Source: Leptospirillum sp.
GTDB taxonomy: Bacteria; Nitrospirota; Leptospirillia; Leptospirillales; Leptospirillaceae
Reading direction: 5' to 3'
NCBI GenBank assembly: GCA_027315205.1
Contig: DAHUYM010000003.1
Coordinates: 1-64,000, forward strand
DNA: 64,000 nt
The position numbers and the translations under genes were made by a program. Each line of letters opens with the position of its first letter. Position 1 is the first letter of the stretch. The notes beneath the pieces are model-generated. The model saw only the letters and a list, made by a program, of their open reading frames with translations. It was not told where the DNA came from and did not search any database. Of this stretch, positions 14,631-23,252 are shown in pieces.

Positions 14631-14702
14631 GACTGTTGAACCTGTGTTAGGCTGAGAACGTGCCAATCGTTTCACTATTTGACCCAGCGAAAGGTTTTCG
14701 AT

Positions 14703-14873
14703 ATGGATTCCAACGAAGAAGTCGATCCGATGGACGATTTTGAACTGCCTCTCGTCATTCCCAAGAAGAACGGTCCCGACTGCCCGTTCTGCGGTGATCC
14801 GACTCTTGCAGTTGACGGGGATTATGTCTGCATCGACTGCAATGGGACATGGTACGGGCCGAATATCGGCTAA
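14703..14873 (+). CDS. small CxxC zinc-ribbon protein
   Basis: A 56-residue acidic protein ending in a four-cysteine zinc ribbon, CPFCG followed by CIDCNGTWYG. The N-terminal half is rich in Asp and Glu. I chose the ATG at 14703 because AAAGG lies eight bases upstream; a TTG at 14679 is in frame but unsupported. No function can be assigned; such ribbons often bind nucleic acids or partner proteins. It sits between the amidase gene and tRNA-Arg on the same strand. Confidence 0.65.
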   Translation: MDSNEEVDPMDDFELPLVIPKKNGPDCPFCGDPTLAVDGDYVCIDCNGTWYGPNIG

Positions 14874-15190: not shown

Positions 15191-16411
15191 CTAACCCCGG
15201 CAGTGCTTGATGATGAATGTTTCGATGGAAACAGGAGTGCCGATCAGGGTCTCCATTCGGGCCATGAACGAGGGTCTGACCTTGTTTTCGGCATTGTCTA
15301 GCGAGGTGTTCCTGAGAAGAACCCAGGCCTGTTCCTCCCGTTCGTCCCAGAAAAACGGCTCGTCCATACGGGTCTTGCGGGCGAATTCCTTCAAGTTCTT
15401 GACATTGGTATGGACCGGAATGATCGAAGCCGATTCCCGTGAATGCGCCACCATGTCGATGATCCGTTCGGCTTGTCGAATATCGTACCCGGCCGACGGG
15501 AGCCATTGTTTTGCGTATCGATACTGTTCGGACCATGTGAAGAGTTTTGCGCACTCCAGGATCCTCTCCGACATCCGGACGAGGGCCTTTCGAAAGAGAG
15601 AGATTCCGATATTCCTGATGGCTTCGGCACTGGCCGACACCGTGACGACGGGGAGAACTCTGGCGCATCGTAGCGTGGTATGGACCCATACGTCCGATGG
15701 GTCCGTCGAACCGTCGACCAGGGTCCCCCACCAACGTCCCATTCCGGCTTGATCTTTGGGGGCCTGGGGAATTCGGCTCTGGTCCGCTTGTTGAGGAAGG
15801 TTCAGGATCGTGCCCCTGACCGACCGGATCACGATATCGCGAAGAGTCTGGTTTTGGGTTTCTTCTTTAAGGATATCCAAAGCCACATTCGCGAATGTCC
15901 CCTCGTCGACGATTTCCATCCAATCGGAGATCTTCGACAGGATTTGCCGGTCCCCCGAGAAAAATCCCGGTTTCAGGACAAAGTCTGCCTCCGAGACTTT
16001 GCCGTCGGGAACGAAAACGAGGTGATATCCTTCGTCGGTTTTGCGCGACGCGACACCGACCTTTGGGGGCGAATTCAGGTCCCTTCGGAATACCTTCAAG
16101 ATCGCTGAGGACTTTGGTTCCGTAAAGATTTTTGCCCGGAACGGGTCCAGTTCTTTTCCGTTCGGGGCGTTGACGAACTGGTCGAGTTCGGCGGAAAAGG
16201 AATCGAACCCCTTGATCGTCGGGAGCTTCTGAAAGGACGGTGGAAGGTTGTCGGTCCAGTAAAGAAGATCCCCGGATTTCGAGAAACCGATGTGCCAAGA
16301 TTCCCTGGGAAGTCCCAGAGTCGGATCGACAAGCGCGTCTTCAATAGACTGGGGGCCGAAGTTGCGACGATCTTCACCCAACAGGGGATGGTTGGAAGAG
16401 ACGATTTTCAT
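15191..16411 (-). CDS. orphan protein of unknown function, 406 residues
   Basis: I do not recognise this protein. It is soluble by appearance, with no signal peptide or membrane helix, and its composition is mixed and normal-looking. The N-terminal part has Trp/Phe-rich segments (RESWHIGFSKSGDLLYWTD); the C-terminal third is helical with many charged residues. It stands alone between tRNA-Arg and the aldo/keto reductase gene, facing the tRNA. AAGG lies four bases before the ATG at 16411, and a good promoter lies about 100 bases upstream, so it is probably expressed. Its position beside a tRNA gene is compatible with acquisition, but I find no integrase or flanking repeat. Confidence 0.7.
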   Translation of the reverse strand: MKIVSSNHPLLGEDRRNFGPQSIEDALVDPTLGLPRESWHIGFSKSGDLLYWTDNLPPSFQKLPTIKGFDSFSAELDQFVNAPNGKELDPFRAKIFTEPKSSAILKVFRRDLNSPPKVGVASRKTDEGYHLVFVPDGKVSEADFVLKPGFFSGDRQILSKISDWMEIVDEGTFANVALDILKEETQNQTLRDIVIRSVRGTILNLPQQADQSRIPQAPKDQAGMGRWWGTLVDGSTDPSDVWVHTTLRCARVLPVVTVSASAEAIRNIGISLFRKALVRMSERILECAKLFTWSEQYRYAKQWLPSAGYDIRQAERIIDMVAHSRESASIIPVHTNVKNLKEFARKTRMDEPFFWDEREEQAWVLLRNTSLDNAENKVRPSFMARMETLIGTPVSIETFIIKHCRG

Positions 16412-17562: not shown

Positions 17563-18474
17563 TCAGGTTGTGGCTTCGAGGATCCGCCGCCCTGCCTCAT
17601 TCCATGTGTCGGTGATCTCGAAGAGATCTTCCCTGGCAGACCAGACTCCGGCGAGCATCGGAGCCGGGGAATGAAAGATGAACGGGCCGTTTTTCCGGGA
17701 GATGAGGATTCCCCCGGCGCGTCCTCCTGTCCGTCCAAGGATTTCTTCCAGGAAAAGAGGCCCTTCTCTGGCGGCATGCTCCCTCGAGGGTGCCGAATCC
17801 GAGAGCGACAGAAGGCGATACCCGGCAATGGTTTTCAGGATGCTCTCTCCTTCTCCCGTCATTGAAACCGCACCGATCCTGTCGTCGGCGTAATAACCCG
17901 CCCCGGGAATGGCACTGTCCCCGATCCGGCCGGGCCGCATTTTGCCCGCCCCTCCCGTCGAAGTGGTTGCCGCGTGGCGGCCTTCCTGATCCCTGACGAC
18001 GGCGCCGACCGTACCGGTTCCGGTACTTTCCTTCGGTGCGTTCCAATACGAAAGGGATTCCTGGGGGAAAGCCGGATCGACCGGCAGGTCAGACAGGTGG
18101 CGGCTTCGGGTCCAACGGGATACGGACTCTCCGGAAAGGAGGACGTGTTTCGTGTTCCGGAAGAGGTCCGGCAGGATCCGGCTCGGACAGGAGACATTCA
18201 CGATGGCCGGGATGCCGAGGCTTTTAAGGGTTGTTCCCTCCATCGTGCCGACGTCCCTCCGGACGATTCCGTCTTCCTGGGGTATGGCTCCTTTACCGGC
18301 GTTGAAGAGTCCCGATTCTTCCATCCGTTCCACCAGATACCAGGAGGTTTCGAGGGCGGAGGTACCCGTCCGGAGTCTCCGGCTTCCCTCCTCGAGCAGT
18401 GAACGGATGACTTGAACGGCTTCCGGTTCCAGACGGGAACCCAGGCCGGCGTGGACCAGGATCAAGGGAAACAT
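17563..18474 (-). CDS. Ntn-hydrolase asparaginase / isoaspartyl peptidase (type 2)
   Basis: Plant-type L-asparaginase or beta-aspartyl peptidase, 303 residues, made as a precursor that cuts itself before a threonine. The likely nucleophile is Thr155 in GTGTVGAV, and the substrate-binding segment TSTGGAGKMRPGRIGDSAIPGAG follows the family pattern. It would release aspartate from asparagine or from isoaspartyl dipeptides. The ATG at 18474 overlaps the stop of the c-heme gene by one base (TGATG), implying coupled translation. The aldo/keto reductase gene follows. Confidence 0.88.
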   Translation of the reverse strand: MFPLILVHAGLGSRLEPEAVQVIRSLLEEGSRRLRTGTSALETSWYLVERMEESGLFNAGKGAIPQEDGIVRRDVGTMEGTTLKSLGIPAIVNVSCPSRILPDLFRNTKHVLLSGESVSRWTRSRHLSDLPVDPAFPQESLSYWNAPKESTGTGTVGAVVRDQEGRHAATTSTGGAGKMRPGRIGDSAIPGAGYYADDRIGAVSMTGEGESILKTIAGYRLLSLSDSAPSREHAAREGPLFLEEILGRTGGRAGGILISRKNGPFIFHSPAPMLAGVWSAREDLFEITDTWNEAGRRILEATT

Positions 18475-19829
18475 CAGGTTTCGTCTTGGGGAGTGTGGAT
18501 CACGGGCAGGCCCCGGACCATACCGATAATGGCTCTCAACTCAGCGTGCAGCTGTTTCAAGGATTTCTGGAGTTCTTCGACCCAGATCTTGTCGGTTTCC
18601 GGAAGAGATTCGAAGTTCGGGGAATGGCGGATCGGAACGATGTCGATTTCTTCGAGGACGGTATTCATTTCAATGGCGCTGTTTTTGAGTTCATCGAGTT
18701 TTGCCAGGGCTTTGGCCACGGTCGGATCCTTTAGGACCTCTTCGCGTGCTTTCAAGTCCAGGATCAGGATCTCGACCTGATCAGTCCACTCGGAAAATCG
18801 TTCGCGCGTCTCCCGGGTCTTTTCTTCTTTGCCGAGATCCGGCTGCTTTTGAATCCCTGCGCGAGGGAGGCTTTCGATGTCTTTTTCAAGAGCCCGGTCC
18901 AATGTTTGAAGTCGTGAAATAAGGGTCGACTTGTTCTCCTCCGAGACAACGGGGAGGTCGTCATTCGAGCCTGAGGGAGTCGCCATTCCTTCCTTTTCGG
19001 CGGAAAAGGTCAGCCCTTTGGAATCGTCCTTCGATTTTCCCTTGTCCGGCGACAGGGCCTCGGAGAGTTTCCTGAACGAATGGGAAAGCTTGTACGAATC
19101 CATGAATACGAGCCCGAACCCCAACAGAAGGACGATCCCCGAGACCAGTCCGAGGATGATTTTCTGGCTCATTTCCGGCAATGGCCAGAATCCCCAGACC
19201 GAAGTCTTCAGATAGTCCGGAAGAAAAGACGGTACGGGGACGAAGGCGACCATGTGCCCCAAGATTTCCGAATCGAACCCGTGGCATTGTGCGCAGGACG
19301 GCGTGTTCGGAATCGGAAGAGACCATACGGCGATTCCTCCGACCGGCTGGATGGGCGTCAGCTGGCCTTCCCGGTTCGTCAGGACGTGATGTTCTCCCTT
19401 CAGGGAGGACATCTGGGCGATCTGGTCGGCCAGCCTCTCGGGAATGGAAGAGGGTGGCCAGGGAAAGATGAGGGGGCCGTGGGGCGACCTGAACCATTCC
19501 TTGGGGACCGGCGAGATCGTCTGCATTTTTTCGAGAGTCCGGGAATTCCTGTACGACGGCTTTCGAGAGGCGTCCAGGAGGACGATCTTGCCGCCCATTC
19601 CCCTTCCGATGCCGCGGACCTGGCTTGGAAAGGATTCTGGCATTCTCGATTCCATCAGGACTTCCAGGAGATTCAAGGACGCCAGGTCCAGTTGTCGGGC
19701 TTTCCTGAGGGCCGTGGTTTCGGCGGACATCATCAGGAAAAAAAGGAAAAGGACACCGAGCAGGAAGGCCCCCGTACCAGCCAGGAACAGACGGGAAAGT
19801 GTGAACAATGGGGGCTTCCGTTTGGCCAT
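18474..19829 (-). CDS. two-helix membrane protein with one periplasmic c-heme site, sensor-like
   Basis: A 451-residue inner-membrane protein of unrecognised family. TM1 spans about 13-34 and TM2 about 222-243. The loop between them (about 35-215) should be periplasmic and carries one c-type heme motif, CAQCH at 179-183, preceded by VWSLPIPNTP, a pattern seen in periplasmic heme sensor domains. The cytoplasmic part (245-451) is charged and probably coiled-coil, with no kinase, HAMP, GGDEF or methyl-accepting domain that I can see. The topology suggests a redox or gas sensor that signals through the coiled coil; this is inference. Its ATG overlaps the purS stop by one base (TGATG) and its stop overlaps the asparaginase ATG by one base, so it is embedded in the purine operon. 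Confidence 0.72.
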   Translation of the reverse strand: MAKRKPPLFTLSRLFLAGTGAFLLGVLFLFFLMMSAETTALRKARQLDLASLNLLEVLMESRMPESFPSQVRGIGRGMGGKIVLLDASRKPSYRNSRTLEKMQTISPVPKEWFRSPHGPLIFPWPPSSIPERLADQIAQMSSLKGEHHVLTNREGQLTPIQPVGGIAVWSLPIPNTPSCAQCHGFDSEILGHMVAFVPVPSFLPDYLKTSVWGFWPLPEMSQKIILGLVSGIVLLLGFGLVFMDSYKLSHSFRKLSEALSPDKGKSKDDSKGLTFSAEKEGMATPSGSNDDLPVVSEENKSTLISRLQTLDRALEKDIESLPRAGIQKQPDLGKEEKTRETRERFSEWTDQVEILILDLKAREEVLKDPTVAKALAKLDELKNSAIEMNTVLEEIDIVPIRHSPNFESLPETDKIWVEELQKSLKQLHAELRAIIGMVRGLPVIHTPQDET

Positions 19830-20125
19830 CACACGCTCATGGGTTGTTGTCGGACGGGTTCGATTCCCTGGATTTCGTAGTTTTCGACAAGGGGATTGGC
19901 AAGGATCCTGTCGCACCATAGACGGACCTTTTCTTCCGTATCTTCCGACGATGGAAGGAAAATTTCAATGATTTTCCCGATCCGGATCGTAAAGACGTCG
20001 TTCTCGCCCATGTCGTGCAGGGCCTGGCATACCGCTTGTCCCTGGGGGTCAAGTATCCCTTCGCGGATCCGTACGAGGACCGTGACTTTGGTCAGGGAAC
20101 GGGAAGCTTCAGAATTCTGGGTCAT
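19829..20125 (-). CDS. purS: phosphoribosylformylglycinamidine synthase subunit PurS
   Basis: Small subunit of the PurS-PurQ-PurL FGAM synthase complex, 98 residues including an extra N-terminal tail of about 12 (family about 80-85). The start of the fold, KVTVLVRIREGILDPQGQAV, and the segment VFTIRIGKIIEI are typical. The ATG at 20125 has AGGAGA ten bases upstream and overlaps the end of purC by 17 bases. purQ and purL, which normally follow, are absent here; instead the c-heme membrane protein gene follows with a one-base overlap. Confidence 0.92.
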   Translation of the reverse strand: MTQNSEASRSLTKVTVLVRIREGILDPQGQAVCQALHDMGENDVFTIRIGKIIEIFLPSSEDTEEKVRLWCDRILANPLVENYEIQGIEPVRQQPMSV

Positions 20126-20843
20126 GTCCAACGACTCTCCTGAAAAGTTCGAGATAATGTTCTTCCACTTGGCCAAGATCCTGCCGGAACCGGTCCTTGT
20201 CCATCTTGTCCAATGTTTTTGAGTCCCAGAAACGGCACGTGTCTGCGCTGATTTCATCTCCAAGGCAGACTTTGCCGGATTCCCCGACACCGAATTCGAG
20301 CTTCATGTCGACCAAAAGGATATCCTTCCCGGCGAAAAAAGGAACCAGAACGTCGTTTGTTTTCCGCGCCAGGCGTTCCACTTCCGCAAGGACTGCATGG
20401 GAGGCGAGCCGGAGAACATCGATATGATCCCTGTTGACGATGGGATCCCCGAGGTCGTCCCGTTTGTAATACCATTCGAGGACGGGATGAAGGAGCTCCG
20501 TCCCTTCGTTCAAACCCAGACGCTTTACGAGGGATCCCGCGACGCGGTTTCTCACCACGACTTCCAGGGGAACCATTTTCAGCCGGCGTATCTTCATTGC
20601 GTTTGGTGCAACCCTTCCGAGAAAATGCGTCGGTATCCCCTTGTTTTCGAGCATGGGAAAAAGCGTCGAAGAGAATTGGCAATTGATTGGGCCTTTGTGA
20701 AGAATCGTGCCCTTTTTGAGGGCATTGAACGCCGTAGCGTCATCCTTGAAAGACTGGACGAAGGACTCGCTTTCGCCTGTCTCATAGAGAATCTTGGCCT
20801 TGCCTTCGTAAATACGGGTCCATTCCACGTGGGAACTCCTCAT
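20109..20843 (-). CDS. purC: SAICAR synthetase
   Basis: Phosphoribosylaminoimidazole-succinocarboxamide synthase, 244 residues, joining CAIR and aspartate using ATP. The nucleotide-binding start IYEGKAKILYETGE is clear, and the SAICAR signature appears as DMKLEFGV. The ATG at 20843 lies two codons after a GTG that could also start the gene. Neither has a good ribosome site, so translation may depend on coupling with purB, whose stop is about 28 bases upstream. Confidence 0.95.
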   Translation of the reverse strand: MRSSHVEWTRIYEGKAKILYETGESESFVQSFKDDATAFNALKKGTILHKGPINCQFSSTLFPMLENKGIPTHFLGRVAPNAMKIRRLKMVPLEVVVRNRVAGSLVKRLGLNEGTELLHPVLEWYYKRDDLGDPIVNRDHIDVLRLASHAVLAEVERLARKTNDVLVPFFAGKDILLVDMKLEFGVGESGKVCLGDEISADTCRFWDSKTLDKMDKDRFRQDLGQVEEHYLELFRRVVGHDPEF

Positions 20844-22207: not shown

Positions 22208-22744
22208 CTAAAGGGACGTCCGGACGACATTCGGATGGGTGGTGGCTCCGGACGGATTTCGGATCAGGCATGAAGCAGGGATGTCCGAAGGATCCGAGAT
22301 ATGAAACATATTGCCACCCGGTCGGGTTTTCGGTGTATCGAGTTCTTTCAAAAGCTCCGGAGTCAGCGTCGTACAATCGATGATGACGCGTTCGCTTTTA
22401 AGATTGGAAACGATTTCCTGAAGCTTTCCGGACAAGCCGGCAATTCGGGATGGATGGTAGGGTACGATAAGAAAGCCGTTCGCAAGCGGCGGGCGTGATG
22501 GAAAAAATAGAAAAGATTCGGGAAAATCCGTCCCGGTCCTGTAAAAGGTTTTCAGGCTCCGGGTGAGAATGCCCGAGTACCAGAGGTCCAGCCAACCCAG
22601 AATTCCGTTCAGGACCGACCGGGTGCAGTCGAGAAAATAGATTCGGAGCGGATTGGGTTCCCCGAATAGCCCCCCTTCCCAGACCGGAAGAGAGTCGGCG
22701 GGTTGATCCCGGGTCGCGGCCGAAATCGAATCATCCGGTTTCAT
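22208..22744 (-). CDS. unknown protein, 178 residues, between nusB and purB
   Basis: I do not recognise this protein. It has no signal peptide or convincing membrane helix. The centre has an aromatic stretch (IYFLDCTRSVLNGILGWLDLWY) and the rest alternates short beta-like segments with Pro-rich loops. The ATG at 22744 has GGGGGGAA about five bases upstream and overlaps the end of nusB by 14 bases, which argues for genuine coupled translation. An in-frame ATG at 22777 would lie deeper inside nusB. Confidence 0.6.
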   Translation of the reverse strand: MKPDDSISAATRDQPADSLPVWEGGLFGEPNPLRIYFLDCTRSVLNGILGWLDLWYSGILTRSLKTFYRTGTDFPESFLFFPSRPPLANGFLIVPYHPSRIAGLSGKLQEIVSNLKSERVIIDCTTLTPELLKELDTPKTRPGGNMFHISDPSDIPASCLIRNPSGATTHPNVVRTSL

Positions 22745-23252
22745 CGTTTTCCCCCCGATTGTTGAGGGTGACTTCAAGCCCTTCCGGAGCCCCTACGGAC
22801 ACTTTTCCGGGATTCAATCGAACCCCGACCTGGTGGAGGATCCCGTTTATAAAAGAAACCGCCTCGGGATCCGAGAATTGGTGGGCCAATTCCAGCGATT
22901 CGTCAATGCTGACCCTGAACGGAATCGTTTCCTCATAGAGAATTTCATACGTTCCGATCCGGAGGATATTCCTGTCGACACGGCTCATCCGCTCCAGGGA
23001 CCACTGGGACGACAGCGAACGAATCACTTCATCGATATGGGGCTTTTGTTCCTGAATTCCCTGCCATAGGCGATTCCGGAGGTCCCCGCTCTGGTCAGGC
23101 ACCTGGCGATCGTGTGGAAAAGGGGCGTGTTCGTTTTTCCGTCCGGGAAGGTACTCATCCGCATAAAGGGCTTGGAGGACATCGATCCTTGCCTTTCGGA
23201 ACTGCTTTCGGCGTTCGATCTGCCGGTCCCGTCTCTCCGGACGGTCGGTCAT
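22731..23252 (-). CDS. nusB: transcription antitermination factor NusB
   Basis: All-helical RNA-binding factor, 173 residues, which binds boxA RNA with NusE (S10) during rRNA antitermination. The N-terminus is basic (RRDRQIERRKQFRKARIDVLQALYA), and the C-terminal half has the typical RVDRNILRIGTYEILY and IDESLELAHQFSD segments followed by FINGILH. The ATG at 23252 has AAGGGGAG six bases upstream and overlaps the ribH stop as ATGA. The ribH-nusB order is common in bacteria. Confidence 0.95.
   Translation of the reverse strand: MTDRPERRDRQIERRKQFRKARIDVLQALYADEYLPGRKNEHAPFPHDRQVPDQSGDLRNRLWQGIQEQKPHIDEVIRSLSSQWSLERMSRVDRNILRIGTYEILYEETIPFRVSIDESLELAHQFSDPEAVSFINGILHQVGVRLNPGKVSVGAPEGLEVTLNNRGENDETG

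Follow-up and report, generated by a model that had tools for sequence, protein, structure and literature searches.

The closest described relatives of the protein reported here are c-heme Cache sensors, which were recently defined (sCache_heme, PMC12889525). Sensors of the Geobacter GSU0582/GSU0935 type (PF21563, Mcp40H-20_sensor; PF11845, Tll0287-like) carry a periplasmic domain between two transmembrane helices, with a CxxCH motif before the last strand. The crystal dimer of GSU0935 has two hemes, and at one of them Met60 was seen as a distal ligand. This residue binds the reduced heme, is freed on oxidation and is displaced by NO or CO (PMC8396549). Orphan sCache_heme–HAMP proteins, such as Target 2 of P. 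azotoformans (PMC12889525) and a protein from another Nitrospirota family (locus L067), have two membrane helices and a c-heme Cache-type domain, end in HAMP and have no enzymatic output. The L067 gene (1231–2085 of that locus) encodes 284 amino acids with a HAMP domain (E 8e-9) and adjoins a thiamine-phosphate synthase-like gene. Tll0287 and the stand-alone sCache_heme protein of P. putida also possess a c-heme Cache domain, with a distal Cys ligand and no membrane–cytoplasm part. The Cys-ligated stand-alone P. putida protein showed redox-like behavior, and slow NO release was found for the Cys-less type (PMC12889525).

The locus studied here lies in a window of 64,000 nucleotides, the whole stretch of Leptospirillum sp. 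DNA that was analyzed (contig DAHUYM010000003.1). On the minus strand, as for all parts of this gene, positions 18474–19829 form an open reading frame that encodes 451 amino acids and for which homologues were found. The N-terminus of the protein is basic (MAKRK) and predicted to be cytoplasmic. It is followed by a first transmembrane helix (residues 8–35, 19725–19808), a periplasmic heme Cache-like domain (residues 36–216, 19182–19724) and a second transmembrane helix (residues 217–245, 19095–19181) that runs on to about residue 258. Long helices at residues 8–60 and 218–258 of the AlphaFold2 model hold both hydrophobic stretches. The cytoplasmic part comprises a linker (residues 246–296, 18942–19094) and a four-helix region (residues 297–440, 18510–18941). 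A predicted heme c attachment site, CAQCH, is located at residues 179–183 (19281–19295), and its Cys179 and Cys182 are the only cysteines of the protein. Thus, the two-helix layout with a periplasmic CAQCH, which had been proposed in the first-pass annotation, was recovered. Pfam and NCBIfam scans of the 451-residue protein gave no family above the cut-off, and sub-threshold Pfam matches of the protein or its 18 members to Mst1_SARAH and ZapB were regarded as coiled-coil noise. No paper on this protein was found in the literature. The CxxCH motif is invariant in all 18 homologous sequences that reach this position, and dN/dS is about 0.05–0.2 in both folded parts. The protein and its features are therefore not due to chance.

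We compared the periplasmic domain with known heme sensors. Pfam scanning of the 18 members touched PF21563 in two cases, both below threshold (E 0.026 or worse). For profile comparison by hhalign, sensor domains were taken from PF21563 proteins of Nitrospirota, which are heme chemoreceptors. The family profile matched these sensors at a probability of 97.7% (single-comparison E 2e-12) and the periplasmic part alone with 97.2%. With the CxxCH segment masked, a modest match of 75.9% over 100 columns was obtained. As controls, column shuffles stayed below 1%, and shuffles that kept the motif reached 27–67%, only over 12–30 columns. A second profile alignment against the heme chemoreceptor sensors gave 96.4%. 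A subset of sensors with an insertion like that of the window protein was matched with 96.5% over 138 columns. With the motif masked, this value was 54% compared to 47% for a motif-only control, and the subset therefore adds little beyond the motif. Searched against PDB sequences, the periplasmic profile returned nothing significant. Searching 350,542 PDB chains with the AlphaFold2 model by Foldseek placed 3b42 (GSU0935) at rank 1 and 3b47 (GSU0582) at rank 4, with weak scores (E 0.03–0.4). The model has the helix–strand–(CxxCH)–strand order of the Cache fold, and its confidence is below 50 near the heme site.

Based on the profile–profile matches and on the ranks of GSU0935 and GSU0582 in Foldseek, the periplasmic domain, which has a dN/dS of 0.05–0.21, is best interpreted as a divergent c-heme Cache relative (sCache_heme, PMC12889525) and not as a new fold. 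The c-heme sensor-like character suggested by the first-pass annotation is thereby upheld at the level of homology, with a fold match of weak score. The same annotation knew of no described family with this architecture. That statement no longer applies to the sensor part, which belongs with the described PF11845/PF21563 sCache_heme superfamily (PMC12889525), whereas the whole architecture and the cytoplasmic domain do appear undescribed. In contrast to sensors of the GSU0582/GSU0935 type, the window protein has an addition of about 40 residues ahead of the CxxCH half, including the invariant W112, H117, P119, F122 and W124. It also remains below every Pfam cut-off and lacks a HAMP, MCP, kinase or GGDEF output. 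The c-heme Cache sensors thus extend to proteins that current profiles miss.

Two sides of the putative heme site were considered. Heme c would be bound covalently at Cys179 and Cys182, and His183 is the predicted proximal ligand. On the distal side, Met59 (codon 19653–19655) is invariant among the homologues and aligned with the Met within 'TMLEG', a motif of the heme chemoreceptors. When aligned to 3b42, the same sensor column corresponds to chain residue 26, which is Met60 provided that His144 is chain residue 110. The conserved Met of the first helix therefore stands at the place of the distal heme ligand Met60 of GSU0935 (PMC8396549), and from the sequence it probably ligates the heme here as well. 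His117 is likewise invariant, and judged by conservation it is the main alternative candidate for the distal ligand. In contrast to the Tll0287/P. putida type, the window protein has only the two CxxCH cysteines. Without a third cysteine, the Cys-ligated stand-alone redox type is excluded. The host genome encodes cytochrome c assembly proteins and two other heme-bearing MCP-type proteins.

The cytoplasmic part differs from what had been annotated. Instead of the long coiled coil described on first reading, AlphaFold2 predicts a disordered linker of about 40 residues, with low confidence at residues 260–293 approximately, followed by four helices at residues 297–439. The same four helices were obtained when the cytoplasmic tail was modeled in isolation. 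Among homologues the linker varies in length from 34 to 58 residues and has a dN/dS of 0.16–0.73, compared to 0.06–0.17 for the four-helix bundle. Hence, purifying selection is strong on the periplasmic domain and on the bundle and weaker on the linker. The combination of a constrained domain and a loose tether suggests that the bundle serves for docking and not as a rigid relay. HAMP receptors signal by a continuous helix, and the disordered linker is unlike such a helix. Where the orphan sCache_heme proteins end in HAMP, the window protein has the flexible linker and the four-helix region.

The absence of a known output domain, as claimed before, held up in Pfam, PDB sequence, Foldseek and MCP hairpin comparisons. 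No HAMP or other output domain and no Pfam match were found for the cytoplasmic domain in the 18 members scanned, the PDB sequence search gave no relative, and Foldseek of the bundle returned generic helix bundles only. Searched across the phylum, the domain was found only in the Leptospirillum family, except for three weak matches in another family (E 0.003–0.009). These matches were rejected as relatives, being short YtxH-like membrane or coiled-coil proteins with no pur neighbors seen. In the window protein, a cytoplasmic domain that was so far unrecognized replaces HAMP, kinase or chemotaxis outputs.

A local similarity to 'QTNLLALNAAIEA' raised the question of a degenerate MCP hairpin. 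The protein would then be a heme chemoreceptor that has lost HAMP and whose signaling hairpin has eroded past recognition. Its sensor is indeed related to those of heme MCPs, and a heme MCP-like protein encoded in the same genome is itself weakened, with a divergent hairpin. However, hhalign of the cytoplasmic part against MCP hairpins gave 0.1–0.3%, which is the level of shuffled columns; in addition, HAMP is missing and the linker is predicted to be disordered. We consider an eroded chemoreceptor very improbable. The weakened protein (L039 880–2703; contig C41 of the same genome, approximately 70872–72692) is an MCP-like protein of 607 amino acids encoded after an lgt gene. It has a periplasmic CESCH and a HAMP match below threshold, its MCP hairpin is weakened (PF00015 E 2e-14), and at least two relatives in the largest genus (L095, L100) are without any CxxCH. 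Just downstream of a CheB-like gene lies the gene for a heme MCP whose sensor is of the PF21563 type, with CYLCH (L038 1135–2808; contig C22 of the same genome, approximately 143.8 kb).

Taken together, we favor, with modest confidence, a membrane receptor in which a divergent periplasmic c-heme Cache domain with a Met59 switch controls how the bundle meets a cytosolic partner. Following the proposal for Geobacter GSU0582/GSU0935, Met59 on helix 1 would be a reversible distal ligand, on the reduced heme and off upon oxidation or NO binding. Helix 1 would shift as a result and, in a dimer, displace the membrane helices, and this movement would make the tethered four-helix bundle engage or release its partner. 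Several points speak against a receptor, namely the disordered and variable linker, the lack of HAMP or another output, the Foldseek E of 0.03, the low model confidence near the heme site, the modest profile match with the motif masked and the insertion subset, which hardly exceeds its motif-only control.

The chief alternative is a monoheme cytochrome or redox scavenger anchored in the membrane, acting as electron carrier or NO sink, in which the bundle would be a mere scaffold and no signal would be passed. The missing output domain and a flexible, variable linker that is ill-suited to rigid signal transfer fit such a protein. Furthermore, about half of the sCache_heme proteins are stand-alone, and the one tested was of redox type (PMC12889525). 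On the other hand, selection constrains the bundle as much as the periplasmic domain, the protein lacks the axial Cys found in the tested redox type, and in chemoreceptor sensors the Met aligned here acts as the switch ligand. We regard a non-signaling cytochrome or scavenger as rather unlikely. If the protein does signal, it would give periplasmic heme sensing a new route of output in iron oxidizers, for which redox state is central.

The gene is embedded between purS (19829–20128, minus strand) upstream and an Asparaginase_2/isoaspartyl peptidase gene (17563–18474, minus strand) downstream. Both junctions read TGATG. The purS stop (19831–19829) has one base in common with the ATG of the gene (19829–19827), as has the stop of the gene (18476–18474) with the asparaginase ATG (18474–18472), which agrees with the one-base overlaps noted in the first-pass annotation. 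Pfam confirmed the neighbors in the window as Lyase_1/ADSL_C (purB), SAICAR_synt (purC), PurS (E 3e-22), Asparaginase_2 (E 1.5e-48) and an aldo/keto reductase. In a survey of homologues, the gene directly followed purS in 18 of 18 other loci. The refuting condition named in the first-pass annotation, that homologues never occur near pur genes, thus does not refute its proposal. Where the contig extends far enough, the order was nadE-ribBA-ribH-nusB-orf-purB-purC-purS-gene-asparaginase. The distance from the purS stop to the gene is -1 in three genera and 0 in one. The largest genus has a gap of 39 to 70 bases and the gene has its own purine-rich ribosome-binding site. In-frame purS fusions, apparent at four loci, proved to be an artefact of aligning beyond a stop.

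Two other Nitrospirota families have the gene order purC-purS-purQ. The purQ-purL-purF genes form a separate cluster on another contig of the host genome (C1, 19.0–23.6 kb; L138), and purS is therefore split from its complex partners in the Leptospirillum family. PurQ and PurL are the complex partners of PurS. Since the gene stands after purS where those two families have purQ, a single ancestral rearrangement is suggested, and this is most likely what its place in the purine operon reflects.

These data bear on a further reading, in which a redox/NO receptor directly regulates purine or asparagine/aspartate metabolism and its bundle binds PurS, PurC, PurB or asparaginase. The constant position beside purS, the asparaginase gene next to it wherever the contig extends, and the purS spacing of -1 or 0 bases seen in four of five genera would fit this. 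However, adjacency to purS is not specific evidence of a purine link, because the whole block from nadE to asparaginase is conserved. The largest genus separates the gene from purS with its own ribosome-binding site, PurQ and PurL are encoded elsewhere, and the bundle sequence hints at no binding partner. A functional link of the protein to purine or asparagine metabolism is possible, while for a direct role it is adjacency, and nothing else, that speaks. We regard such direct regulation as unlikely. We rate as equally unlikely the related proposal that a heme redox/NO receptor with a new tethered output domain directly tunes purine (PurS/PurC/PurB) or asparagine metabolism and so couples respiratory redox to nucleotide synthesis in acidophilic iron oxidizers. 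Because the gene is always placed behind purS, a connection of redox state with nucleotide synthesis is open to direct test.

We also determined how widely the protein is distributed. Of 61 related genomes searched in full, 21 belong to the same family, and 19 of these, counting the window's own, encode the protein. It was not detected in the remaining 40 of the phylum. Pattern scanning of 84,980 species genomes gave 16 loci, all from metagenome-assembled genomes labeled Leptospirillum sp. or Nitrospirae bacterium. Every homologue found belongs to the Leptospirillum family. In the two genomes of this family that lack the gene, purS had no match either, a coincidence that would suit direct purine regulation. 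As purS is missing as well, absent contigs are indicated, and true gene loss was rejected in favor of what look like assembly gaps.

Three further reading frames were seen in the window. An open reading frame for 406 amino acids (15191–16411, minus strand) had no Pfam match and was not seen around the corresponding blocks in relatives. A zinc-ribbon-like protein of 64 amino acids (14679–14873, plus strand), with sub-threshold Pfam matches only, lies near the asparaginase gene in many relatives. Between nusB and purB, a protein of 189 amino acids (22208–22777, minus strand) without a Pfam or NCBIfam match is present family-wide with 29–44% identity.
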